From the NCBI GenBank assembly GCA_011365055.1, contig RDOG01000010.1, forward strand, positions 62,001-126,000: a DNA stretch of 64,000 bases. Reading direction: 5' to 3'. Below, piece after piece: positions 19,516-32,126 of the stretch (its first letter is position 1; every line of letters starts with the position of its first letter). The DNA comes from Promethearchaeota archaeon (lineage in GTDB: Archaea; Asgardarchaeota; Lokiarchaeia; Helarchaeales; RDOG01). The notes beneath the pieces are model-generated. The model was given only the letters and a program-made list of their open reading frames with translations. It ran no database searches and had not been told where the DNA came from. The position numbers and the translations under genes were made by a program.

Positions 19516-20049
19516 TTAGAATTTATGTGTAACTTTTTCATTCACTATTTCTTCTGCCTCAAGTTCTCGGATTATTCCGTTGATAGCTTCAATGGCTTGA
19601 GGGATGATTTTCATATAAGGAGTTACTCCACTTCCACTGAAATTGCCTGGATTAGTAACTACTGTTGGTAAACCAGGTGCGAAGACTGCTTGTCTAGTTC
19701 TGACCAAACCATCACGGTATTGGTTTAACCATTCGATTTTTTCGGGGATGGTTTTTTTACTTTCTAATATTTTTTCTACTTGGGTTGTATCAAATCCTGG
19801 AACTCGTTTTAAATCTTTTCCACCTTTCAACCATCCAAGATTTTTTCTTTTTCTCATGCATTTGCTATGATATTGATTGAAAGAATCAACTAATGCATCT
19901 TCTAAACGTGAATTTAAAGCATCTTCCAATTCTATGTCATTTTCTTCACAAATTTCAGTAAATAACTTTAAATATTTTTTATTTAATTTTATTTTTATTA
20001 TTTCTTCTTCTTTTTCCTTATCTACTACAACTTTTTCTGAAATTACCAT
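19516..20049 (-). CDS. hypothetical soluble protein
   Basis: 177 residues. A basic/acidic N-terminal half (IIKIKLNKKYLKLFTEICEEN, then LEDALVDSFNQYHSKC) has a ribbon-helix-helix-like look. A C-terminal half follows with GLVRTRQAVFAPGLPTVV and a helical end. No family was recognised. SD GGTGAT lies about 9 nt before ATG 20049. It is divergent from the HTH-HdrA gene and shares its 365-bp control region. Confidence 0.65.
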   Translation of the reverse strand: MVISEKVVVDKEKEEEIIKIKLNKKYLKLFTEICEENDIELEDALNSRLEDALVDSFNQYHSKCMRKRKNLGWLKGGKDLKRVPGFDTTQVEKILESKKTIPEKIEWLNQYRDGLVRTRQAVFAPGLPTVVTNPGNFSGSGVTPYMKIIPQAIEAINGIIRELEAEEIVNEKVTHKF

Positions 20050-20414
20050 TTTTTTTCATCACCTTTATTTTTATTTCCATATTTTTTATCCTGATCTTAT
20101 ATACACATTAAAAAAATAAAAAAATCTTGAAAAGGTAGCGTGTCAATAAAATTATTACTTTTGTTGTCAAAAGTAGATCCAAGACAATTAGTGATCTATT
20201 GTTTTTCGACAATTTCATTAGTCATATTTTGACAAATGTAGAAGTCATAGTTTTTATATTAACAAATATTGTTATTAGATCTTGAATGACAAAAAAATTT
20301 ATCAAGAATTTAAAATCAATTTATAACAATTATTTTGATAGTTTTAATCTATTCATATAATCATTTAACATATAAGCATTCTAATATGAAGCATCTTGAA
20401 TTGGAGTTTAAGAT
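20050..20414. promoter_or_regulatory. divergent control region upstream of HTH-HdrA with TTGTC/GACAA repeats
   Basis: The region contains the inverted repeat ACTTTTG-TTGT-CAAAAGT (20157-20174). Related elements follow: AAGACAATTAG (about 20191), TTGTTTTTCGACAA (about 20209-20222) and TTTTGACAAATG (about 20228-20239). The repeats are seen directly. Because the downstream protein begins with a winged-helix domain, autoregulation through these elements is a reasonable inference. Confidence 0.45.
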
Positions 20415-23006
20415 ATGGATTTATTGGAGATATATAACATTTTATCTCACCCAATTAGAAAACAAATTTTACTAATTTTAGAACATGAAGGTTACATTCA
20501 ATACACTGATTTATTAGATCAATTAAAACTCGAAACTACTGGACAATTAAATTTTCATTTAAAGAAACTTGGTCCTTTAATTCGAAAAGATAAAAAATCT
20601 TATTCATTAACTGCGGAAGGGAAACGCATCATTAAAATTATGAATATAAATGACATGTTATTATCTGGTGAAGATATTGAGCTCCTTGATTTATCTGCGC
20701 AAAAAAATAATGAATTGAATCGTGTTGGTGTGATAATATGTAATTGTAATACTGAAATTTCGAGCACCATTGATATTCAAGCGCTTGAAAATTACATTCA
20801 AAGAATCAGAAACGTGGTTTCAGTCAAAATTTTAGATAACTTTTGTCAACAAAAATATTTAAAAAACATTGAAGATTGGGTTAAAGAAAATTTTATCAGT
20901 AAGATCGTTATTGGAGCATGTTCACCAAGATCTCATCAACATGTTTTTGAACGCATTTTTGATGGTATTATTGACAAGCAAAACATAGAATATGCTAACA
21001 TTCGTGAGCAATGTGCATGGGTTCATTCCAAAAGAAAATTACGAGCACTCAAAAAAGCACAATTATTAATTGAAGCTGCTGTAGAAAGAGTCATTTTGCA
21101 ACAAAAAATTAGCCAAAAAAAAGTAGAAATTGTCAAAAAAGTTGCTATTTTAGGTGGCGGGATTGCAGGGATGACTCTCTCCTTAAATTTGTCAAGAGCT
21201 GGAATAAAAGTATATTTAATAGAAAAATCTCCAACCCTTGGTGGAAAAGTGGCTCGTTGGGATAGAATTTATGGTATGGGGGATTGTTCTATCTGTTTTT
21301 TATCGGAACTAATTGCTGAAGTTGTCAAAGAAGAAAACATAGAAATTTTTACCAATACTGAAATTGAAAAAGTTACGGGTGAAGTTGGAAATTTTAAAAT
21401 TGATTTAATTAAAAAACCTCGTTATGTGGATGTGAATCGTTGTACAGGGTGCAAACAGTGTGAAAAGATCTGTCCTCACGTTAAAAATGATGAATACGAA
21501 TTTGGGTTAAAAAAAAGAACATTGATTCATATTCCATTTGTTCATTCTTATCCATATGCTGCCGTAATTGACGAAGAAGATGCTAAGACTGTTTGTAAAG
21601 GATGTTTTATGTGTGAAGCGACTTGTATTAACAAGGCAATTGACTTGGATCAGAAAGAAGAACGACTTCAAATTAATGTCGGCGTTAAGGTCATTGCAAT
21701 TGGTGCTGATCTTAATGATGATCTAAGTGAATATGGGTATGAACCAAATAAAGATATTATAACTTCTGCTGAATTTGAACGAATTTTATCAAGCGATGGT
21801 CCAACTGGTGGAAACATCGTGAAACTAAGTGATGGTACAGTGCCGCGCTCCATTTCGATCCTTCAATGTATTAAACCTGATGAAACCATGCCAGATTTTT
21901 ACAATACGCTTGTTATGAAGTATAAATCGAGTATTAAGCTCCGAGTTCCAAGTTGTAAAGTTAACATCTTTTATCCTATACATAGATTAGACGAAAATAA
22001 ACCATTATTGAATCCAATGGATGATAAAAATCATTATATTCTCGGCTCAATTAAAGTAATTAAAGATGATAAAAAGAAATATGTCCTAGCTGATGGTTTA
22101 AGATACGAATCTGACATCATCGTGTTAAACACTAATTTCGTTCCCAACAAGGATTTAATAGATCTAAGACAATCTCTTGATTTTACGTTGAATCCAAATG
22201 GTTTTATGTCCGAAGATACCTTAGCTTCGGGGATCTTTGGATTAGGTACCATTATGGGACCACTGGATTATCACACGACTGTCTCGCAGGCTAATCAAAT
22301 TACTGTTCAAATTATATCAATGCTTTCCAAGGAATATCTAGTTACAGAGGCTACTGGTGTTGAAATTGACGAATTAAAGTGCGGTTTTTGTGGTCTTTGC
22401 ACGATTTCATGTCCATTTGCTGCCATAACCATAGAAAATGATAAAATCTCTTTAGATAGATTTAAGTGTAAAGGATGCGGTACGTGCGTGAGTGTTTGTC
22501 CTACGAATGCCATTCAGATGAACATCGATACGACTGATAAAATATCTAAGACGATTGAAATATTATCAAAATCAAAATCAGAGATAAAGATCATTGCGTT
22601 TTGTTGCCAATCATGTGGATATGCAGCTGCAGATGACGCTGGATTGAAAAAAATTACGTACGATCCAAATATTTTCATAGTGCGAGTTCCATGCACAGGT
22701 CGTATTGATGCAAATTTCCTGATCAAATCTTTTGAAATGGGATTTGATGGTGTAATGGTAATTGGATGCAAAAAAGATGCTTGCAAATATATAGATGGCG
22801 TTGAGAAAGCCCGCAAAAAAATAGAACTAGTCAAGGAAATATTAGGTGAAGATGTAGAACATAAGTTAATGTTTGAAACCTTAAATGTGGTTGAAGGTCA
22901 AAATTTTGCTGATTTAGTCAACAAATTTAAGTTAAATCTCTATAAAATAACTAAAGGAATTAATACAAAGAAAAAGTTAGAGGGGGAATTGATAACTGAA
23001 GCCTAA
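20415..23006 (+). CDS. winged-helix - HdrA - MvhD fusion, heterodisulfide-reductase-type flavoprotein
   Basis: 863 residues. Residues 1-78 are an ArsR-like winged helix (IYNILSHPIRKQILLILEHEG, then TTGQLNFHLKKLGPLI, then YSLTAEGKRIIK). Residues about 100-235 are the HdrA N-terminal domain (VGVIICNCNTEISSTIDI, ACSPRSHQHVFE, NIREQCAWVH). An FAD Rossmann motif GGGIAGMTL starts at about 247. Two 4Fe-4S motifs follow (CTGCKQCEKIC at 343 and CKGCFMCEATC at 394), then the second half of the flavin domain, and a 2x4Fe-4S ferredoxin from 656. From about 725 comes an MvhD/FlpD-like domain (FCCQSCGYAAADDAG, RVPCTGRID, VIGCKKDACKY). HdrA bifurcates electrons; MvhD links it to the hydrogenase whose subunits follow. 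The fused DNA-binding domain is unusual. Confidence 0.92.
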   Translation: MDLLEIYNILSHPIRKQILLILEHEGYIQYTDLLDQLKLETTGQLNFHLKKLGPLIRKDKKSYSLTAEGKRIIKIMNINDMLLSGEDIELLDLSAQKNNELNRVGVIICNCNTEISSTIDIQALENYIQRIRNVVSVKILDNFCQQKYLKNIEDWVKENFISKIVIGACSPRSHQHVFERIFDGIIDKQNIEYANIREQCAWVHSKRKLRALKKAQLLIEAAVERVILQQKISQKKVEIVKKVAILGGGIAGMTLSLNLSRAGIKVYLIEKSPTLGGKVARWDRIYGMGDCSICFLSELIAEVVKEENIEIFTNTEIEKVTGEVGNFKIDLIKKPRYVDVNRCTGCKQCEKICPHVKNDEYEFGLKKRTLIHIPFVHSYPYAAVIDEEDAKTVCKGCFMCEATCINKAIDLDQKEERLQINVGVKVIAIGADLNDDLSEYGYEPNKDIITSAEFERILSSDGPTGGNIVKLSDGTVPRSISILQCIKPDETMPDFYNTLVMKYKSSIKLRVPSCKVNIFYPIHRLDENKPLLNPMDDKNHYILGSIKVIKDDKKKYVLADGLRYESDIIVLNTNFVPNKDLIDLRQSLDFTLNPNGFMSEDTLASGIFGLGTIMGPLDYHTTVSQANQITVQIISMLSKEYLVTEATGVEIDELKCGFCGLCTISCPFAAITIENDKISLDRFKCKGCGTCVSVCPTNAIQMNIDTTDKISKTIEILSKSKSEIKIIAFCCQSCGYAAADDAGLKKITYDPNIFIVRVPCTGRIDANFLIKSFEMGFDGVMVIGCKKDACKYIDGVEKARKKIELVKEILGEDVEHKLMFETLNVVEGQNFADLVNKFKLNLYKITKGINTKKKLEGELITEA

Positions 23007-23766
23007 AATAACAATCATTACATTATCTTCTTGTAGTGGTTGTATTGGTTTGATGTTTACGTTAGATATGTTCAAGCAATTCATGCAAATGGCTGATATA
23101 ACGTTTTTTCCATTTCTTAGTGATACTGAAGAAATTGAAGATGCTGATATTGCAATTATTGAAGGATCCGTGTTAGAAGAAGATGAAGATCATCAAGTCA
23201 AAACCTTAAAAGAAATAAGAAAAAGATCTAAACGAGTGTATGCATTAGGAACATGTGCAGTTTTTGGTGGGATAGTAAATTTAAATAAAGATAAACAAGG
23301 AATCCCGGTTTCTAAATATATTGAAATCGATGGATCAATTCCTGGTTGTCCTCCTCCACCTAAGCTATTGGGAAATGCATTAATGAACATTTTAGAAAAT
23401 AAAGAAATTGTACTATCGAAAAAAAACTTGTGTAATAAATGTCCATTACGTTCCAGTCTTGATTATAACTTCCAGAATGAGATCAATACATTAATTCCAA
23501 TAAAGGATATGACAAAATCAGATACTCCAACTTGCTTTTTAAAAGATGGAATCTTGTGTTTGGGACCAATAACTAGAGAAGGATGCGAAAGTCAGTGCAT
23601 TAAACAAGGAGTTCCTTGTGAGGGATGTCTCGGTCCTATTAAAGCAGATTTTACATCCAATATTATTAACTTCTTAAGTTTGATTAATTTTTCAAAGGAT
23701 TTACAGGATTATACTGGTATATTCTTTAGATTTTCAAGACCCAAAATAAGGAGGATTACCAAATGA
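22996..23766 (+). CDS. mvhG: [NiFe]-hydrogenase small subunit, MvhG-like
   Basis: About 256 residues carrying the Fe-S clusters that pass electrons from the NiFe site towards HdrA/MvhD. The first usual start codon is TTG 23050, but that omits the essential proximal-cluster motif CSGC, which lies upstream in frame (LSSCSGCIGLMF). Starting at CTG 22996 restores it as Cys13/Cys16. That codon directly follows an in-frame TAA and has a GGGGG SD 9 nt upstream, overlapping the hdrA end. Further ligands are LGTCAVFGG, PGCPPPPK and a Cys-rich C-terminal part (CNKCPL, CLGPITREGCESQC, CEGCLGP). It overlaps mvhA by 4 nt. Confidence 0.88.
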   Translation: MKPKITIITLSSCSGCIGLMFTLDMFKQFMQMADITFFPFLSDTEEIEDADIAIIEGSVLEEDEDHQVKTLKEIRKRSKRVYALGTCAVFGGIVNLNKDKQGIPVSKYIEIDGSIPGCPPPPKLLGNALMNILENKEIVLSKKNLCNKCPLRSSLDYNFQNEINTLIPIKDMTKSDTPTCFLKDGILCLGPITREGCESQCIKQGVPCEGCLGPIKADFTSNIINFLSLINFSKDLQDYTGIFFRFSRPKIRRITK

Positions 23767-25070
23767 AAAAAACAATTAATCTTTGTACACGAGTCGAGGG
23801 TCATGGAGAGTTGCATTTTCTTATGAAGAAAGAAGAATTGCAAAATGTAAATTTTGAAGTAACAGGAATACGAGGATTTGAAAATATTTTATTAAATAAA
23901 AAATTAGAAGATGTACCTAGGATTTCCGGAAGAATTTGTGGACTATGTCACGTTTCGCAATCTGTAGCTAGTTTAAAAGCTATAGAAGACATATATGAAA
24001 TAGAAGTTTCAGATCAAGTTAAAAATTTGCGCCGACTTATGATGATCGGCGATCATATTAAATCACACATTACGCATTTTTTCTTCCAGATTTTTCCAGA
24101 TCTATTTTTTATAGTAAAAGGTCGCAAGGCTCCATTAAATCCCAATGAGTTAATCAAATTCAACCCTGAATTGACAGAATACATTTTTGATTTATTAAAG
24201 AATGCTGTTTCGATTATTAATATGTTGGGTGGTCGCTCTGTTCATCCTATTTCACTTGCTATTGGTGGCTCTTATTATACTCCTCAGAAAAAAGAACTTG
24301 ATTTTGTGAGACGAACGTATCAAAAATCATTTAACGATATAGAATTCGTGATAAATCTTTTTTTAGAATTATTTCTAAAAAATTCTCCTGCAGAACACTT
24401 TGCTTTAGGAAAAGCAAATTTTATGAGCATGGAAAATAAAGGAGAATTTGATATTTATGAAGGAAATTTAAAGATAATGGAAGAAGATGGCATGATTCAT
24501 GACATACCACTGGATAAAACTAATGAAATGTTGATTCGGCATGAAGCTCCTGGTATTTATCTTGATTATCATGGTGAAAAAAATTTATTAGCAGGACAAC
24601 TCGCTAGATATAATATCATTTCAGAAAGCTTTAAAGCTAATGAGATAAAGGAATTTTTAGGTGATTTTACAAAAACTTGGAAATCAAGCGTTATTTTTTC
24701 TGATTTTCTACAAATATTGGAGTTATATATGCTTATAAGCCAAGCTTTAAATATTTTAGATAATGATAATTTGGCACGTAAAATGGATTATCCATTAATT
24801 CCTCCAGCTCCTAAAAAGAAAGTTGGATTTGGATTGGTCGAAGCTCCTAGGGGGACGTTGATTCATAGATTTGAAATAGATGATCGTATATTGACAAAAG
24901 ATGTAATGTTAAAAATTCCAACCGAAGTAAATATTCCATCTCTTAATGAGATATTAACAAGGAATTGTAAAAATTTCTATGAAAAGGTTCAAAATTTGGA
25001 TGCAACCAAACAGATAGGTCAAATGATCTTGAGAAGTTTCGATCCGTGCATATCATGCGCAACGCATTAA
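23763..25070 (+). CDS. mvhA: [NiFe]-hydrogenase large subunit, MvhA-like (group 3)
   Basis: 435 residues with the NiFe active site that splits or forms H2. RVEGHGEL is at residues 10-17, the L1 motif RICGLC has Cys59 and Cys62, and the L2 motif DPCISCATH is at the extreme C-terminus. The protein ends exactly at that final His, so there is no C-terminal peptide for a maturation protease to remove. The position after L1 normally filled by His is Gln (HVSQS), as in some other NiFe families. Its ATG overlaps the mvhG stop. The expected complex is HdrA-MvhD plus MvhG plus MvhA. Confidence 0.93.
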   Translation: MKKTINLCTRVEGHGELHFLMKKEELQNVNFEVTGIRGFENILLNKKLEDVPRISGRICGLCHVSQSVASLKAIEDIYEIEVSDQVKNLRRLMMIGDHIKSHITHFFFQIFPDLFFIVKGRKAPLNPNELIKFNPELTEYIFDLLKNAVSIINMLGGRSVHPISLAIGGSYYTPQKKELDFVRRTYQKSFNDIEFVINLFLELFLKNSPAEHFALGKANFMSMENKGEFDIYEGNLKIMEEDGMIHDIPLDKTNEMLIRHEAPGIYLDYHGEKNLLAGQLARYNIISESFKANEIKEFLGDFTKTWKSSVIFSDFLQILELYMLISQALNILDNDNLARKMDYPLIPPAPKKKVGFGLVEAPRGTLIHRFEIDDRILTKDVMLKIPTEVNIPSLNEILTRNCKNFYEKVQNLDATKQIGQMILRSFDPCISCATH

Positions 25071-25084
25071 GGTACGTGTTGATA

Positions 25085-26041
25085 GTGAACGAAAAAAAAA
25101 CCGAATTAAAATTAAATGATGAAGAATTAATAACTCGAATAAAACAAATCACAAAAATGAAAAATTTAGATGAAAAATATATTGAAAATCTTAAAAATAC
25201 TGGTATACATCCTTGTTATTCTGAGACTGCACACTTCAAGGTTGCAAGAATTCACCTTCCTGTTGCTCCAAAATGCAATATTCAATGCAGATATTGTAAA
25301 AGAGATCTCAATAAAATTGAAAACCGTCCCGGTGTTGCATTTGGAATTCAAACTCCTGAAGAAGCACTTCACTTCTTAAAAAAAAGCATGGAAAAAATCC
25401 CTAATCTTAAAATAATTGGAATCGCGGGTCCTGGCGAACCTTTAGCTAATCCAGAAACCTTTGAAACCTTCAGATTAATCAATGTAACATATCCTGAGCT
25501 TGGAAAATGTATTGCTACAAATGGTCTGTTATTATCAAAATATGTAGATGAACTTGTTAATTTAGATGTAATTAATGTGACGGTTACAGTAAATGCAATT
25601 GATCCGGAAGTAGCGGCAAAAATTTATCCATTCATAATGTATGAGGGAAAAAGATATGAAAATGAAGAAGCAGGCAAAATCATTGTGGAAAATCAATTAA
25701 AAGGAATTGAAATGGCTGTTAATAAAGGTTTAATGATTAGAATAAATACTGTTCTTATTCCATCTATTAATTTCAATCAAATTGAAAAAATAGCAAAGGA
25801 GACTGCGGCTCGAGGTGCAGTTTTACATAATATTATGCCATTAATACCTATTTACGAGTTTAAAGGGGAAAGACCACCAACTCGAGAAGAAATGCACGAA
25901 GCAAGAATAAAATCTCAGAATTATTTACCACAATTCAAATTATGCAAACAATGTAGGGCAGATGCTGTAGGTATACCAGGCTTTGAAAAAATAGGAACTT
26001 GCAACAGCGAAGATTGCTCTCATATTCGATTTCATGGGTGA
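25085..26041 (+). CDS. NifB-family radical SAM protein
   Basis: About 319 residues. The radical SAM Cys motif CNIQCRYCKRDL is preceded by LPVAPK and followed by NRPGVAFGIQTPEEAL, then GIAGPGEPLANPETF and TNGLLLS, as in NifB, which builds the NifB-co 8Fe-9S-C cluster. The C-terminal half has CKQCRADAVGIPG and a Cys-rich tail (CNSEDCSH). Asgard and methanogen genomes can hold NifB-like proteins without nitrogenase, and no nif structural gene is here. The frame opens at GTG 25046 inside mvhA. Starts at 25055, 25079 or 25085 are all possible; 25085 is a guess. Its place directly behind mvhA suggests a role in cofactor maturation. Confidence 0.78.
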   Translation: MNEKKTELKLNDEELITRIKQITKMKNLDEKYIENLKNTGIHPCYSETAHFKVARIHLPVAPKCNIQCRYCKRDLNKIENRPGVAFGIQTPEEALHFLKKSMEKIPNLKIIGIAGPGEPLANPETFETFRLINVTYPELGKCIATNGLLLSKYVDELVNLDVINVTVTVNAIDPEVAAKIYPFIMYEGKRYENEEAGKIIVENQLKGIEMAVNKGLMIRINTVLIPSINFNQIEKIAKETAARGAVLHNIMPLIPIYEFKGERPPTREEMHEARIKSQNYLPQFKLCKQCRADAVGIPGFEKIGTCNSEDCSHIRFHG

Positions 26042-26111
26042 ATTTAAAAAAAAAAAAAAAATAGAATTTTTAAATAGATCATTTCCTAATAGATTTTTGG
26101 AGCGGTTTTGA

Positions 26112-26831
26112 TTGTGGTCAATAGATGATTTTAAAATAGGGACAGGCCCTTCTAGCGTGCAAATAAAACAAGAAATTAAACCTGTTTATTATCTCTGTAA
26201 ACAAAAAATTGATCAATATATTGCAAAAACGCGAATGGAAGCATTTCGTTTAAAAAGAGCAAAAACTGATTCCCAATCCAATGAAAAAGAAGATAAAATT
26301 GATTTGGAAATCTCATATACTCCATGTTTCATTTTAGAAGGGACTCACGAAATCAAACATTTACGAAAAAATGTTCTTCAAATTCCATTTCAAGATGATA
26401 TAATCGCTATAAATATCGATGAGACAATTATTTATAAAAAAGATTTAAAACAATCAAAAGATAAATCCTATGAGATTAATATAACAGAATTAGTTACTCA
26501 TAAAAATTCTAATAGATTGATTCTAGATGCGCAAGCTAAGTCAATTAAAGAAAAAGATATACCCGATTATGATTTATTAGATAAAAATACGGTTGAAGAA
26601 ATTTTAGATAAACAACAAATCCAAGCAGATATTAGTGAAGATTTGTTGATTGAAAATTTTAAAACCTCTATTTTAAAACCTTCTCAAAATAATATAAAAA
26701 CACTTGAAGAAAATCTCAATATAAATTTGAAAATTATATTACGAGCCAAATTTATTGGTAAAATTAGAGTAAATGACAAATTAAAAATGATGACTATTGA
26801 TTCAGTAACTGGCGAATCAAAAATTGAATAA
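26112..26831 (+). CDS. hypothetical protein
   Basis: 239 residues, highly charged and soluble. No family was recognised. An N-terminal helical part (residues 20-60) is followed by a predicted beta-rich region (ISYTPCFILEGTHEIKHLRK, DIIAINIDETIIYKK) and a Lys/Glu-rich C-terminal half. The start is TTG 26112. It follows the NifB-like gene by 70 nt on the same strand but beyond an A-run, so operon membership is uncertain. Confidence 0.6.
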   Translation: MWSIDDFKIGTGPSSVQIKQEIKPVYYLCKQKIDQYIAKTRMEAFRLKRAKTDSQSNEKEDKIDLEISYTPCFILEGTHEIKHLRKNVLQIPFQDDIIAINIDETIIYKKDLKQSKDKSYEINITELVTHKNSNRLILDAQAKSIKEKDIPDYDLLDKNTVEEILDKQQIQADISEDLLIENFKTSILKPSQNNIKTLEENLNINLKIILRAKFIGKIRVNDKLKMMTIDSVTGESKIE

Positions 26832-26850
26832 AAAAAAGAAAATTAATTTT

Positions 26851-28536
26851 TTATTGTTTTAATTTCTGAGGGACGGGCACTTTTTTTTTAAATAGCAATC
26901 CCTTCGCAATTTCAAAAGCTCGATTATAGTTGAATGTCTTTTTACCTGTTGTTTTAGCAGCTTCTTTGAGAATCATGCTCTCAGTGGTATATTTCACCCG
27001 ACCGACCGCTAATGCACCTGTGCCATGAATTCCTGGTGAGATTTCTTTATTATCGTGCGTGGGTTTTAATCCTTCAATTCCAAAGGGTGGAACTGCATTA
27101 ATGTCCAGAACTAATTTATTCTGAGGAAGCTTTTTTAATAATTCATTCGAAACAATCTGAATTCCAGCGGCAGCTACAGCCCAGATAATATCAGCTTCCT
27201 TTAAAATAATTTCTTTCTTATCATCTGTATTTGCAAACTCTCCTTTAACAGGAGTTGCACCTTCTCCTGCTTCTTCTTGTAATTGTGCGGCCAAATTCTT
27301 CACAAATTCCTCGCTCGCTCCATCCCAAGTTTCAACTAGGGTTGTTTTACAATTTAATTTTGCTGCTATTATGGTGGCAATTCTACCTACTGGACCCGTT
27401 CCTAATACTGCTACTTTTTTATCTTTTAAATCATCAATACCCTGATTGGAAGCCATTTCCATTGTTTTTGCTACGAGTGCGGCTGCAGTTGAATGCGAAC
27501 CTCTTGGATCAATTATTACGGGGGCTTCAAATGGGGGAAATAAGGATTTTTGTACTTTTTTTGCAATTACTTCTGCTTCTTTTACGTTTGATCCTCCAAT
27601 GAAAAATGTAGTTGGTGAATTAGGTGCTCTAGAAAATATCGCATCTTGAATTAATTTAGTAACATTATCTTGAGTTACGTTTGAGTATGGAATGACTGCA
27701 TCAAAACCCGCATCATAACCCATGTTTATATCGAAAGGTGATGCATAGTTATCAGTATCAAGCATGTATAATATTTTCTCTTGAACAGGCTTCTTTTTTA
27801 CCTTTACGGGCATAATGTCAAGAATGGAAGATTCTATCGATTCTTTGAGTGATCCTCTCTCTTCAAAATTAGGAACTTTTTTAATATTGATTAGTTCTAT
27901 ATCAATACCTAGTTCTCCTGCGAGCTTTCCAATTCCTTCAAAATGTTCTTTATTACATATAAATAAGATTTTTTGATTTTTCTCTTCCAACTGTCTGGCT
28001 AATTTTAAAATTCCCATTACCATCCAAGCTTCTCGAACTTCAAGCTTGATTTGTCTTTCTGATTCTTTATATTCTTCTTCTAGATAAGAGCTCCATCCGA
28101 ATAATTCATCTATGTATTGATCTTTCGTCTTTACGTTTTTTTTCAAATAATTTTCCATTTCTTTTTTGATGTCTTTTAGCAAATTCCTTTTAGGCTCAAT
28201 AGTTGAGGCGATATAATCCAGAGCATTAGGTGAAATATCAACCATTTTATATTGAACCTCATATTTTTTGAACAATTGGGTTAATGGATTGTCATACAAG
28301 AACTCCTCAAGAGTTCTATTTCCTTTTTCTTCTACAGCAAAGTTCGGAGGCTTCTCCTGAAGAAACTGCTCAACCACTTTAAGATATGGCTTAGAAATAA
28401 ACCTTACATTCGAAAAATGATCCAAAGCGTTGCCATCTTCCGGGAAAAGCGACCATTCTACTGGAAATTCACTTTCAAGTAGTATTAATTTTAATTTCTT
28501 ATTCTTTAATGGTTCAAGTTCAAGTGTTTCTAGCAT
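26851..28536 (-). CDS. methylene-tetrahydropterin dehydrogenase (MtdA/MtdB-like) with fused N-terminal domain
   Basis: 561 residues. From about residue 255 it matches NAD(P)-dependent methylene-H4MPT/H4F dehydrogenases: YASPFDINMGYDAGFDAVIPY, then FFIGGSNVKEAEVIA, IIDPRGSHSTAAALVA, the Rossmann motif VAVLGTGPVGR, DINAVPPFGIEG and GIHGTGALAVGRVK. It would interconvert methylene- and methenyl-tetrahydropterin in C1/Wood-Ljungdahl metabolism. Residues 1-250 are an added domain, weakly TraB-like (VREAWMVMGILKLARQLEEK, then ILFICNKEHFEGIGKLA). The upstream gene encodes the same domain alone. SD GGAGG precedes ATG 28536. Confidence 0.85.
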   Translation of the reverse strand: MLETLELEPLKNKKLKLILLESEFPVEWSLFPEDGNALDHFSNVRFISKPYLKVVEQFLQEKPPNFAVEEKGNRTLEEFLYDNPLTQLFKKYEVQYKMVDISPNALDYIASTIEPKRNLLKDIKKEMENYLKKNVKTKDQYIDELFGWSSYLEEEYKESERQIKLEVREAWMVMGILKLARQLEEKNQKILFICNKEHFEGIGKLAGELGIDIELINIKKVPNFEERGSLKESIESSILDIMPVKVKKKPVQEKILYMLDTDNYASPFDINMGYDAGFDAVIPYSNVTQDNVTKLIQDAIFSRAPNSPTTFFIGGSNVKEAEVIAKKVQKSLFPPFEAPVIIDPRGSHSTAAALVAKTMEMASNQGIDDLKDKKVAVLGTGPVGRIATIIAAKLNCKTTLVETWDGASEEFVKNLAAQLQEEAGEGATPVKGEFANTDDKKEIILKEADIIWAVAAAGIQIVSNELLKKLPQNKLVLDINAVPPFGIEGLKPTHDNKEISPGIHGTGALAVGRVKYTTESMILKEAAKTTGKKTFNYNRAFEIAKGLLFKKKVPVPQKLKQ

Positions 28537-28548
28537 TATTTAACCTCC

Positions 28549-29151
28549 TTAATTCATTATCTGAATGGGTGAAAGTATTTGTTTTGTAATATCAATAATT
28601 TCAACGGGGATATCCAAGTCGTCAAATATTTTTTTCAATCCAGGAATAAACTTCTTAGGTGTAAAATGCATTAAAACTTGATTTTCCTCATTGAAATTTT
28701 TGACGATATCTAATATTTTTTTAACAACCCATTGATTTCTTAAATGATAATTCAATTTTTTTTCTAATTCTTTAATTTCATCTTTAAGATAAGCTATCCA
28801 AGATTCTAAATTTTGACCTTTAAAAGAATTTTTGTCCGTATCCATTAATTCTTCTTCTAATTCCATAATTTGGTCTTTTCTTCTATCAATTTCCTCTTGC
28901 AAATATCCTTTTGCAAATAAAGGCATTCCCACTTCATATAACAAGGGAAGATTGCCTTCTAATGGTTTCATCAAAGAAATTGCATTTAATTCCGTTAAAT
29001 CTTTATCAACAGTTGCAAAGGTAACTTTTGCTTGCTCTAAAACAGACTTTAGATTATTAAGTTCAATTTCACTGAACTTTTCATTTGGTTTTGGAATTAA
29101 ATACATACATATCTTTTTATTTTTTTCAATTTCAAAATCTAATACTTCCGT
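28549..29151 (-). CDS. stand-alone paralogue of the N-terminal domain of the MtdB-like fusion
   Basis: About 200 residues. The sequence LNYHLRNQWVVKKILDIVKN with following VLMHFTPKKFIPGLKKIFDD and IPVEIIDITK parallels the fusion protein segment by segment, so the two domains are homologous. The first usual start is ATG 29106. The upstream in-frame residues TEVLDFEIEKNKKI align with the start of the partner (MLETLELEPLKNKKL), so the true start is upstream. SD GGAGG (29161-29165) lies 9 nt before ACG 29151, directly after an in-frame TAA. A frameshift after GTG in TTGTGTTAA is the alternative. It lies 12 nt from the mtdB-like gene, probably in one operon and as a subunit pair. Confidence 0.65.
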   Translation of the reverse strand, partial: TEVLDFEIEKNKKICMYLIPKPNEKFSEIELNNLKSVLEQAKVTFATVDKDLTELNAISLMKPLEGNLPLLYEVGMPLFAKGYLQEEIDRRKDQIMELEEELMDTDKNSFKGQNLESWIAYLKDEIKELEKKLNYHLRNQWVVKKILDIVKNFNEENQVLMHFTPKKFIPGLKKIFDDLDIPVEIIDITKQILSPIQIMN

Positions 29152-29165
29152 TTAACACAACCTCC

Positions 29166-29594
29166 TTTATTTTCAACAATTGTGTGTTTTAAAATTTTAA
29201 GTTCTATCATATTTTTCTATAAAATATAATCTCATCTAAAAATATAACAAAATTGAGAAGACAATTTTTTATCGATTAAACTATTTTTTTAGATATATTT
29301 TTTTTTAATCTATTTTTTTCTAGATACATTGAAAAAAAAGAGAAGATGAATTATATCCAATTAAACTATTTTTTTAGATTTTTTTTTAAAAAATCTAATC
29401 TTGTAGGGAAATTAAAAAAAAAAAGAGAAAAAAAATATTATCAAATTGACTACTATAATAGACAAAATTTTTTTTTATCTAATCTTGCTATGATTAATTG
29501 AAGAAAAAATTGTTAGTAGAAATAATGAATAGTATTTAATATATTATTAAAATAATTTGAAATTTAAGTGAAAATCTTAAAGGTGAATGGTCTA
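29166..29594. promoter_or_regulatory. AT-rich control region upstream of the second HTH-HdrA, with direct repeats
   Basis: A 20-nt sequence is repeated exactly at 29275-29294 and 29360-29379 (it reads ATTAAACTA, seven T, AGAT). ATCTAATCTTG occurs at 29393-29403 and again at 29477-29487. AGACAA occurs near 29260 and 29460, recalling the GACAA elements before the first paralogue. No gene is seen. The region lies between divergent genes and probably contains both promoters. Confidence 0.45.
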
Positions 29595-32126
29595 ATGGAT
29601 ATTTATTCAATTTTGGCACATCCATTGAGAAGAAAAATCCTACTTTTATTGGAAAAAGAAGGTTATATTCCGTTTTCTGATATTTTAGAACGCATCGGTA
29701 CTGAATCTACAGGTCATTTAAACTTTCATCTTAAAAAATTAGAGGGATTAATAAAAAAAGATAAAAAATCTTATTGTTTAACAAATGAAGGGAAAAAAAT
29801 TATAAAATTGATGAATTTAAGCCAAGTTTTACTCTCGGGGGAAGATATTGATTTTTTTTCAACTCAAAAAAGTGAAATTAGTCGTGTTGGAGTTATTATT
29901 TGTGATTGTAATACAGAAATTTCTAGCACTATAGATATTGAGGCACTTGAAAGATATTCAAAAAAAATTGGTAATGTTGTATCTGTTAAAATATTTGATA
30001 ATGTGTGTCAAGAAAAGAATCTAAAGGGAATCATAAATCTAGTGAAGGATAATTTTATCAATAAAATTGTGATTGCTGCATGCTCACCAAGAACCCATCA
30101 ATTTATTTTTGAAAGAATATTTGAAGAGATAATTGATAGATCGAATATTGAAATAGCAAATATAAGGGAACAGTGTTGTTGGGTTCATAAAAAAGATCCT
30201 AAACTTGCGTTAAAAAAAGCTAAAATTTTAATTGAAACTGCTGTAGAACGAGTTATTTTACAAAAAGAAGTGCAAGTTAAAAAAGTGAAAGTAGAAAAAA
30301 GCATAGCTATATTAGGAGGAGGAATTGCAGGAATGACTTTAGCTCTGAATATGGCTCATGCGGGAATTAAGACGTATTTGATCGAGAAATCTCCAACTAT
30401 CGGAGGCAAAGTTGCTCGTTGGGATAGAATATCTGGAATGGGGGATTGTTCTGTTTGTTTTTTATCTGATATGATTGGTGAGCTTGTTAAAGAAAAAAAT
30501 TTAACAATTTATACTAACACTGAAATTAAAAGAGTATCTGGGGAAGTCGGCAATTTTACAATCACATTAAAACGTAAACCTCGTTACGTTGATATTAGTA
30601 AGTGTACTGGTTGTAAAAGCTGTACTGAGATTTGTAAAATCGAAAAAAAAGATCAATTTGAATTTGGATTAGAAAATAGAAAGTTAATTTATTTACCTTA
30701 TAGTAATTCATATCCTTATGCTGCCGTGATTGACGAAGAAGATATTGACAAATGCATAGATTGTCGAATTTGTGAACGTGCTTGTATAAATAAAGCTATA
30801 AATCTTGAAGAAAAACCTGAGGAATTACAAATTAAAGTTGGTATCAAGGTCATTGCAATTGGTGCAGACCTTAATGATGATTTAAGTGAATATGGATATA
30901 ATCCCGATAATGATATTGTTACTGCTGCTGAATTCGAACGAATTTTATCCAGTGATGGTCCAACTGGTGGAAACATCGTTAAACTGAGTGATGATACAGT
31001 CCCGCGCTCAATTTCGATCATTCAATGTATTAAACCGGATGAAACCATGCCAGATTTTTACAATACTCTTGTTATGAAATATAAGTCGTGTATTAAACTT
31101 CGAGTTCCTTCATGTGAAGTTAATGTTTTTTTTCCCGTATATATACTAGATGAAAATAAACCATTATTAAATCCTATGGATGAAGATAATCATTACATTC
31201 TAGGCTCAATTAAAGTTATTGAAGAAGATAGTAAGAAATATGTAATGGCTGACGGCTTAAAATATGAGTCTGACATGATCTTATTAAATACTAATTTCGT
31301 CCCTAACAAGGATTTAATAGATCTACGAAAATCTCTTGATTTTACGTTGAATCCAAATGGTTTCATGTCCGAAGATACCTTAGCTTCGGGGATCTTTGGA
31401 TTAGGTACCATAATGGGACCGCTCGATTATCATACGACTGTCTCGCAGGCCAATCAAATTGCAATTCAAATTATTTCCATCCTCTCCAAGGAGTATTTAG
31501 TTACAGAGACTACTGGTGTTGAAATTGATGAATTAAAGTGCGGTTTATGCGGTCTTTGCAGGATTTCATGTCCTTTTGCTGCCATAACCATAGAAAATGA
31601 TAAAATCTCTTTAGATAGATTCAAGTGTAAGGGATGCGGTACGTGCGTGAGTGTTTGTCCCACGAATGCCATCCAGATGAATCTCGATACAACTGATAAA
31701 ATTTCTAAGACGATTGAAATTTTATCTAAATCGAAATCAGAAATAAAGATCATTGCGTTTTGTTGCCAATCATGTGGATATGCTGCCGCAGATGATGCTG
31801 GGCTTAAAAAAATTTACTATAATCCAAATATTTTCATAGTAAGAGTTCCATGCACGGGTCGTATTGATGCAAATTTCCTGATCAAATCTTTCGAAATGGG
31901 ATTTGATGGTGTCATGGTAATTGGGTGCAAGAAAGATGCTTGTAAGTATATAGATGGCGTTGAGAAAGCCCGCAAGAAGATAGAACTGGTTAAGGAAGTA
32001 CTAGGTGAAGAGATAGAGGATAGATTGATGTTTGAAACCTTAAATGCTGTTGAAGGATCAATATTTGCAAAAATAATCAATAGTTTTTATGAAAAATTAT
32101 CCAAAAAAATTAAATCTAACAATTAA
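29595..32126 (+). CDS. second winged-helix - HdrA - MvhD fusion paralogue
   Basis: About 843 residues with the same domain order as the protein at 20415. A winged helix (IYSILAHPLRRKILLLLEKEG) leads into the HdrA N-domain, FAD motif GGGIAGMTL, the clusters CTGCKSCTEIC and CIDCRICERAC, the C-terminal CGLCGLC and CKGCGTC ferredoxin, and an MvhD domain (FCCQSCGYAAADDAG). The N-terminal third differs clearly from the first copy, while the C-terminal half is almost identical even at DNA level. The frame opens at GTG 29568. ATG 29595 has SD GGTG 9 nt upstream and matches the start of the paralogue. No hydrogenase genes follow this copy. It ends in tandem hairpins. Confidence 0.92.
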   Translation: MDIYSILAHPLRRKILLLLEKEGYIPFSDILERIGTESTGHLNFHLKKLEGLIKKDKKSYCLTNEGKKIIKLMNLSQVLLSGEDIDFFSTQKSEISRVGVIICDCNTEISSTIDIEALERYSKKIGNVVSVKIFDNVCQEKNLKGIINLVKDNFINKIVIAACSPRTHQFIFERIFEEIIDRSNIEIANIREQCCWVHKKDPKLALKKAKILIETAVERVILQKEVQVKKVKVEKSIAILGGGIAGMTLALNMAHAGIKTYLIEKSPTIGGKVARWDRISGMGDCSVCFLSDMIGELVKEKNLTIYTNTEIKRVSGEVGNFTITLKRKPRYVDISKCTGCKSCTEICKIEKKDQFEFGLENRKLIYLPYSNSYPYAAVIDEEDIDKCIDCRICERACINKAINLEEKPEELQIKVGIKVIAIGADLNDDLSEYGYNPDNDIVTAAEFERILSSDGPTGGNIVKLSDDTVPRSISIIQCIKPDETMPDFYNTLVMKYKSCIKLRVPSCEVNVFFPVYILDENKPLLNPMDEDNHYILGSIKVIEEDSKKYVMADGLKYESDMILLNTNFVPNKDLIDLRKSLDFTLNPNGFMSEDTLASGIFGLGTIMGPLDYHTTVSQANQIAIQIISILSKEYLVTETTGVEIDELKCGLCGLCRISCPFAAITIENDKISLDRFKCKGCGTCVSVCPTNAIQMNLDTTDKISKTIEILSKSKSEIKIIAFCCQSCGYAAADDAGLKKIYYNPNIFIVRVPCTGRIDANFLIKSFEMGFDGVMVIGCKKDACKYIDGVEKARKKIELVKEVLGEEIEDRLMFETLNAVEGSIFAKIINSFYEKLSKKIKSNN

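Follow-up and report, generated by a model that had tools for sequence, protein, structure and literature searches.

The closest described relatives of the protein considered here are HdrA proteins of type Ia (HdrA2, in which HdrA is fused to MvhD). A paper on this type names MvhD and GltD as additions to HdrA, and the words 'winged' and 'Asgard' occur zero times in its main text (PMC12054007). A second related system is the methanogen complex MvhAGD-HdrABC (Protein Data Bank entry 5odc), and MK-D1, a strain in culture, is reported to have no hydrogenase other than MvhADG-HdrABC (PMC7015854). Here we describe a stretch of 64,000 nucleotides from a Promethearchaeota archaeon of the Helarchaeales (assembly GCA_011365055.1, contig RDOG01000010.1, positions 62,001 to 126,000; hereafter the window), which encodes two copies of an HdrA-MvhD fusion that begins with a winged helix-turn-helix domain (wHTH-HdrA). 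We consider it likely, from sequence comparison, that this hydrogenase-linked flavoprotein has turned into an autoregulatory, redox-responsive transcription factor, either bifunctional or by now mainly regulatory. A literature search on HdrA, Asgard archaea and hydrogenase, judged mostly by title, found no published regulator of Asgard hydrogen (H2) metabolism.

PutA and BirA are metabolic enzymes with a DNA-binding part that controls their own genes, and the regulatory hydrogenases HupUV/HoxBC have a large subunit without a C-terminal extension and signal via a kinase. By analogy, wHTH-HdrA may work in the manner of PutA and BirA, although the combination of enzyme and fold is unrelated and is here linked to a hydrogenase. 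It may likewise resemble HupUV/HoxBC in a possible sensing of H2 and in a large subunit that lacks the C-terminal extension, but its putative DNA-binding head sits on the electron-transfer partner itself. Like HdrA of type Ia, the family has an HdrA core, a C-terminal MvhD part and the E356/K409 residues; unlike that type, it carries an N-terminal winged helix and has lost the C..CC motif proximal to flavin adenine dinucleotide (FAD). As in the methanogen complex, MvhG and MvhA adjoin HdrA-MvhD and retain the hydrogenase cysteine motifs, whereas no HdrB- or HdrC-type protein was found among the 29 window proteins scanned with Pfam (the window has 62 open reading frames (ORFs) of at least 100 amino acids). 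With repressors of the ArsR/DUF24 type (1y0u, PagR, YodB, CadC and QsrR) it appears to share the fold and a dimer-type palindromic site, but the head is fused to a large redox enzyme and the sequence match is weak (best E 1e-4). New here are the operator palindrome, the conservation of the recognition helix and the loss of the cysteine motif beside the flavin.

Two copies of an old fusion

The protein and its domain are located in the window as follows.

20415..23006, + strand: copy 1, whole protein (winged helix, linker, HdrA N-terminal, FAD and ferredoxin domains, MvhD), from the ORF, Pfam and alignment
20427..20639, + strand: winged-helix (DUF7347/ArsR-like) domain of copy 1, residues 5–75, from Pfam, AlphaFold2, Foldseek, profile matches to the Protein Data Bank (PDB) and conservation
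29595..32126, + strand: copy 2 (wHTH-HdrA-MvhD), with Q44 changed to H, no upstream palindrome matching at least 11/12 and no MvhGA behind it

The ORFs of both copies are intact. Pfam places DUF7347 on residues 5–75 of copy 1 (E 2e-11, 44.4 bits) and on residues 11–80 of copy 2 (E 2.6e-11, 44.1 bits), in each case above the gathering score of 27.6, which bears out the claim of a first-pass annotation of this DNA that a winged helix is fused to HdrA-MvhD in both copies. The HdrA core begins at about residue 103 and FlpD/MvhD forms the C-terminal part of each. For copy 2 the likelier start is the ATG at 29595, which gives the family start 'MDIYSIL', rather than the GTG at 29568 (full ORF 29568–32126). 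The two copies are 77% identical in amino acid sequence. Their DNA is 81–94% identical over residues 451–800, 65–75% over residues 1–450 and 71% over residues 801–850, as if the enzyme half had been evened out by gene conversion and the winged-helix half had diverged.

A search of 5.8 billion database proteins with the winged-helix part of copy 1 returned 86 matches inside HdrA-type proteins (a few of them partial), and the same search with copy 2 returned 90, in an overlapping set; every match whose source names an organism is from an Asgard archaeon. Genome contigs yielded 49 loci, of which 46 (L001–L046) are titled as Asgard (Lokiarchaeota/Lokiarchaeia, Helarchaeota, Jordarchaeia and Sigynarchaeota) and three (L047–L049) are non-Asgard and match the winged helix alone. 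When 227 genomes from across the Asgard phylum were searched, 52 proved to carry an ortholog (E 1e-200 or better), with 53 matches in total: one in each of 51 genomes and two in the remaining one, the best four candidates per genome being scored. Two copies in one genome, as in the window, are unusual. All 53 matches include the winged helix and begin at query residue 2–4, with three ending early (at residues 525, 700 and 763). The first-pass annotation had held that the fusion was neither a chance event nor an assembly error, and on the breadth of this survey we likewise reject both. When eight genomes were searched without the candidate limit, each had one ortholog (54–64% identical), and the next full-length HdrA proteins among the matches listed were at most 36% identical and started at residue 57 or later, most of them at residue 83 or later. 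We therefore read the family as one old fusion that has been retained.

An internal start downstream of the winged helix, which the annotation had named as a possible refutation, was rejected as a general explanation, since the domain is present in all 53 matches. It may apply at four of 45 evaluable loci (L012, L021, L026 and L031), where no ATG, GTG or TTG precedes the domain though its frame is open; eight of the 86 database entries are annotated from an internal methionine. The same absence of an ATG, GTG or TTG at the expected start of a conserved open frame is seen for MvhG of the window (22996–23050), and these five cases hint at unusual start codons. As a separate observation, many non-fused HdrA matches in genomes G001–G008 have an in-frame TGA, as selenocysteine would give.

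The winged helix and its recognition helix

Modeled alone with AlphaFold2, the domain forms helices and a beta wing with a mean predicted local distance difference test score (pLDDT) of 83.6, rising to approximately 96–98 for residues 11–70. The top Foldseek matches are mostly ArsR, DUF24 and MarR regulators; the best has an E of 2.3e-3, so that no match reaches 0.001. At the sequence level, a domain profile matched the PDB sequences of the ArsR protein 1y0u (E 1e-4) and PagR (E 7e-4). The prediction for the full-length protein was mediocre (predicted template modeling score 0.49) and was used for the linker alone, where residues 85–100 have a pLDDT below 50. A search for further copies of this winged helix (E 1e-4) found none in genomes G001 and G005; the two HdrA fusions of G175 were the sole matches in that genome.

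The recognition helix of copy 1 corresponds to residues 41–52, TTGQLNFHLKKL. Across 36 sequences its mean conservation is 0.97, as compared with 0.83 for the whole winged helix, 0.75–0.82 for the enzyme domains and 0.66 for the linker. The loss of DNA-contacting residues across homologs, the other outcome by which the first-pass annotation proposed to be refuted, thus did not occur in general.

These values bear on a different explanation of the domain, in which it would be a protein-protein or dimerization module of a working bifurcating hydrogenase and would bind no DNA. The E356 and K409 equivalents and the other cluster motifs are retained, as such a role would have it, but it leaves both the conservation of the helix that in this fold normally reads DNA and the palindrome described below without an explanation. 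The linker, moreover, is poorly predicted and scored lowest in conservation of all stretches compared, as one would sooner expect of a head on a tether than of a domain packed against the enzyme. We regard this explanation as improbable.

A palindrome in the promoters of the operon

Upstream of copy 1 we located a candidate operator, an 18-base-pair (bp) palindrome of the form TGAYAA-N6-TTRTCA, together with imperfect versions of it (none assigned to a strand).

20287..20304: TGACAA-AAAAAT-TTATCA, a perfect palindrome and the window's sole exact copy of the motif
20260..20277: imperfect site TAACAAATATTGTTATTA (10/12), directly behind a TATA-like stretch (approximately 20250–20259), a layout as in relatives
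20207..20247: two more imperfect sites (10/12 each), at 20207–20224 and 20230–20247

The first-pass annotation had described the upstream regions of both copies as rich in repeats. That description is only loosely right: copy 2 has A/T-rich repeats, and copy 1 has no direct repeat of at least 14 nucleotides. Repeats as such were therefore rejected as the relevant upstream feature. What matters at copy 1 is the palindrome, which is invisible to repeat finding. Scans of the 64-kb window detected no Rfam match and no tRNA.

The palindrome was examined in 26 non-redundant upstream regions kept from 48 (up to 350 bp each, 470 bp for copy 2). In word counts over 23 non-redundant regions, TGACAA/TTGTCA appeared in 18, where 4.2 would be expected. 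Inverted TGAYAA/TTRTCA pairs occurred 16 times at a spacing of 6 and once each at spacings of 5 and 11, and never at a spacing of 6 in 200 dinucleotide shuffles. Of the 26 regions, 15 contain a perfect site, and 21 do if one mismatch is allowed; the highest counts reached in 60 shuffles were 1 and 4, respectively. The five regions without a site are those of L001, L007, L008, L018 and window copy 2; in the first three the operon opens with an FrhB-like gene, and perfect sites are found ahead of it, beyond the stretch that was searched, which brings the count to 24 of 26. A perfect site stands before the FrhB-like gene in all seven loci in which that promoter is covered (L001, L004, L007, L008, L011, L013 and L023), and another is found at L131 (genome G154), which lay outside the discovery set.

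The position of the site is also regular. A TATA-like hexamer (TTWAWA) starts exactly at −11 relative to the palindrome in 11 of 25 promoter-proximal sites, and at −27 and −7 in one each; the 25 include the related loci L011, L013 and L023, some 10/12 sites and the 10/12 site of the window. Given the usual distance from TATA box to start in archaea, this spacing would place the palindrome over the initiation region, as for a repressor. Further sites form a second cluster nearer the divergent gene; these might serve in activation or in DNA looping. A conserved site would formally be compatible with a domain that anchors or co-localizes the enzyme on DNA without regulating any gene; the fixed place behind TATA-like boxes and the small number of sites per genome point to promoter control instead, and we give such anchoring very little credence.

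Distribution of the site in loci and genomes

The palindrome is concentrated at these operons. The loci, 725,645 bp in total, contain 53 perfect sites, and 32 of them fall within the 450 bp upstream of HdrA (20,700 bp in all). Of the 21 that remain, 18 precede an FrhB-like or Mtd-like gene: 16 in the seven loci named above, and two before Mtd-like genes at L014 (with a small ORF between) and L032.

In eight genomes (approximately 33 Mb) we counted 31 perfect sites, 1–7 per genome, as compared with 13 for a control pattern read backwards. The stricter form TGACAA-N6-TTRTCA, searched in 18 genomes, matched at 37 separate places (48 matches when strands are counted singly, as compared with 18 for the control), 20 of which are at wHTH-HdrA, FrhB-like or Mtd-like promoters. 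These 20 include Mtd-like genes on other contigs (G140 and G153) and an FrhB-like gene approximately 10 kb from HdrA (G137); in G114, G115, G123 and G128 the FrhB-like promoter was assigned by its distance to HdrA. In G128 HdrA starts approximately 4 kb from the Mtd-like gene. Genome G124 has the palindrome and an Mtd-like gene that starts 2.6 kb from the end of its contig, and no wHTH-HdrA was found in it; given the spacing in G128, the gene may well be missing through an assembly gap. Two sites near the start of an FrhB-like gene (L078 in G003 and L172 in G100) were set aside as coding, as they fall within the first codons of the frame, and one in G114 (L168), inside an ORF approximately 1.5 kb from an ArsR-like gene, was set aside as chance.

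Residue 44, exceptions and the case for a separate regulator

One position of the recognition helix appears to vary together with the site. Copy 1 of the window retains Q44 and has the palindrome, copy 2 has H44 and no palindrome matching at least 11/12 upstream, and L131 has both Q44 and the site. Six distant members of the family (in G159, G160, G175 twice, G177 and G178) have replaced Q44 with I, I, K, R, K and K, respectively. The link between residue 44 and the palindrome is suggestive, because L018 and L045 (the latter with K44 and an 11/12 site) break the pattern; kinship is a confounding factor as well. G159, G160 and L045 appear to share a TGACAAGCCGTTTTGT-like block.

Several observations weigh against a regulatory role. 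The six distant members have no site matching at least 11/12, so that the palindrome rule is not family-wide, and L018 (Helarchaeota) has Q44 yet half-sites only. At L032 the FrhB-like gene lies 507 bp upstream and no perfect site precedes it; 11/12 sites are instead found between it and HdrA. Three of the 53 sites in the loci match no target promoter (L029, L033 and L043). In the eight genomes only 10 of the 31 perfect sites are at these operons, the other 21 comprising 15 inside ORFs and six that are intergenic, and 17 of the 37 stricter places are elsewhere (the context was read for five of these, and the counts of 10, 15 and 20 were made by hand from listed coordinates). The palindrome was discovered and first tested on the same regions, so the shuffle test leaves the choice of motif uncorrected, and the loci are related, so that the counts are not independent events. 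Short cysteine motifs within the enzyme part match the recognition helix in invariance. The helix core TGQLNFHL recurs in the three non-Asgard winged helices, and the conservation of the recognition helix is therefore partly that of a wider domain family; their loci have no palindrome matching at least 11/12. Finally, a gene of the Lrp/AsnC regulator type (L014, 871–1296) lies between the Mtd-like genes and wHTH-HdrA at one locus. At L029 (4676) and L033 (4769), as seen in the sequence, the perfect palindromes stand between two gene 3′ ends, beside an AAA ATPase-looking gene that is co-directional with the Mtd-like genes.

Some of these points would be accounted for if a separate transcription factor (of the Fur, FNR, Lrp or ArsR type) bound the palindrome and the winged helix of HdrA served merely for structure or docking: the sites away from target promoters, the distant members without a site and the Lrp/AsnC-type gene beside HdrA all fit, and the half-site resembles the consensus half-sites of Fur and FNR. 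The N6 spacing is unlike that of the Fur and FNR boxes, and a global regulator would need many sites rather than the few per genome that we count, concentrated at this operon; a Fur- or FNR-like box was rejected on these two grounds. In addition, the Lrp/AsnC-type gene is nearest upstream in just one of 46 loci, within one lineage the palindrome accompanies the copy that retains Q44 and is absent from the copy in which Q44 is changed (window copy 2), and the Mtd-like gene co-occurs with wHTH-HdrA (both in 45 of 227 genomes, one without the other in 7 and 5, neither in 170; Fisher p 3e-34, relatedness ignored). We consider a separate factor unlikely, though the least so of the alternatives.

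The enzyme core and its hydrogenase partner

When the family was aligned to the methanogen HdrA (5odc_A), the cluster-type cysteine motifs were found to be retained except in the QCVGSR...YCSNVCC segment, whose cysteines (386, 399, 403 and 404) we take to hold the FAD-proximal cluster; the lost motif would presumably be the exit towards HdrBC. Of 112 full-length family members (some of them nearly identical), all but P0117 have lost the C..CC motif beside the flavin, which is present in all 18 other HdrA-type ORFs of the same loci. The position equivalent to 386 is cysteine in 16 of 36 sequences.

The high-potential electron is stated to exit the flavin via HA4 (PMC12350162), and E356 and K409 are named as key bifurcation residues (PMC12054007). 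The equivalents of these two residues, at aligned positions 455 and 502, do not vary in any of the 36 sequences. A regular-expression scan recovered E356 in 103 and K409 in 101 of 112 members, and the eight misses listed include short gene calls and pattern failures, so the residues were judged from the alignment columns of 36 sequences. The loss of C..CC, the retention of E356 and K409 and the lack of an HdrB- or HdrC-type protein among the scanned window proteins together suggest that the flavin can still take up electrons but has lost the usual way out for those of high potential. A further point against a mainly regulatory protein is that it may still be a working enzyme, because the FAD residues are invariant and the other cluster motifs are intact.

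MvhA, the large subunit of the hydrogenase, has in the window the motifs RICGLC and DPCISCATH, and by pattern the L1 motif is found in 37 and the L2 motif in 40 of 40 loci of relatives. MvhA ends at the last histidine of the ligand motif in 37 of 40 loci, whereas 5odc_F has 25 more residues.

Gene neighborhood

The genes around the two copies in the window are the following.

19516..20049, − strand: 177-amino-acid protein of no known family, divergent to copy 1
22996..23766, + strand: MvhG-like hydrogenase small subunit; the frame opens at 22996 with no ATG, GTG or TTG before 23050, and the CSGC motif is intact upstream of 23050
23763..25070, + strand: MvhA-like [NiFe] large subunit with RICGLC and DPCISCATH, ending at the final histidine
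25046..26041, + strand: NifB-like radical S-adenosylmethionine protein (295 bits, below the NifB cut-off of 344), overlapping the end of MvhA in the same direction
26851..28536, − strand: second gene of the Mtd-like pair, with an Mpt_N domain and a Rossmann region
28549..29106, − strand: first gene of the Mtd-like pair, divergent, with no Pfam family above cut-off

The window thus shows two layouts: copy 1 stands between the 177-amino-acid gene and MvhGA, whereas copy 2 adjoins the Mtd-like pair and has no MvhGA. MvhG and MvhA genes lie behind HdrA in 41 of the 46 Asgard loci, and the contigs of the other five end at or just past HdrA. The nearest upstream gene is a divergent Mtd-like gene in 29 of the 46, a same-direction FrhB-like gene in nine, the 177-amino-acid gene, again divergent, in two (Helarchaeota L002 and L018), a piece of another HdrA in two and the Lrp/AsnC-type gene in one (L014); in the remaining three the sequence covers no upstream gene. 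The FrhB domain was confirmed by Pfam in L007, L008 and L023, and an FrhB-like gene lies within approximately 150 bp before HdrA in eight loci.

The first Mtd-like gene is present in 50 of the 227 genomes. The pair has a conserved N-terminal module, either alone or fused to a domain resembling methylene-tetrahydromethanopterin dehydrogenase, and often comprises three genes in relatives. At the distant members L121, L123 and L124 the upstream genes resemble, as read from the sequence, formylmethanofuran dehydrogenase subunits D and B and not Mtd-like genes.

A proposed mechanism and its significance

The first-pass annotation had suggested that the redox enzyme might also act as a transcription factor. 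That suggestion has gained strong comparative support from the conserved palindromic operator in its own and linked promoters and from the nearly invariant recognition helix. The enzyme thus probably has a second role, as a regulator of genes that senses redox state or hydrogen.

In the mechanism that we propose, the ArsR-like winged helix would be carried on a flexible linker by the HdrA core and its fused MvhD, encoded with the MvhG-MvhA [NiFe] hydrogenase, and a dimer of the protein would bind TGAYAA-N6-TTRTCA sites. At its own operon, a dimer bound immediately after the promoter's TATA-like box would keep transcription from initiating and so cause autorepression, and further sites before Mtd-like and FrhB-like genes would extend the control to them. 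Electrons from H2, arriving via MvhAG and MvhD, or alternatively the state of balance in the ferredoxin pool, would determine how far the HdrA flavin is reduced, and the flavin state (or that of a cluster) would alter DNA binding, with H2 as the putative input.

The complete scenario, which we advance more tentatively, is that a bifurcating HdrA lost the cluster feeding high-potential electrons to HdrBC and gained a winged helix in its place. Across Lokiarchaeia-type Asgard archaea, the H2 or ferredoxin state would then act through the flavin to set how the repressor binds at the promoters of hydrogenase, FrhB-like and Mtd-like genes. An electron-bifurcating flavoprotein may thereby have become a sensor by dropping one cluster. 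If true, this would be a hydrogen- or redox-responsive transcription factor in a single complex, built from an electron-bifurcating enzyme, with the hydrogenase wired directly to DNA.

Asgard archaea are the closest known relatives of eukaryotes, and models that trace eukaryotes back to syntrophy hinge on how these archaea tune their H2 metabolism to their partners. wHTH-HdrA would offer a candidate regulator of that metabolism, with a named DNA site, a small predicted set of targets and a testable chemistry.

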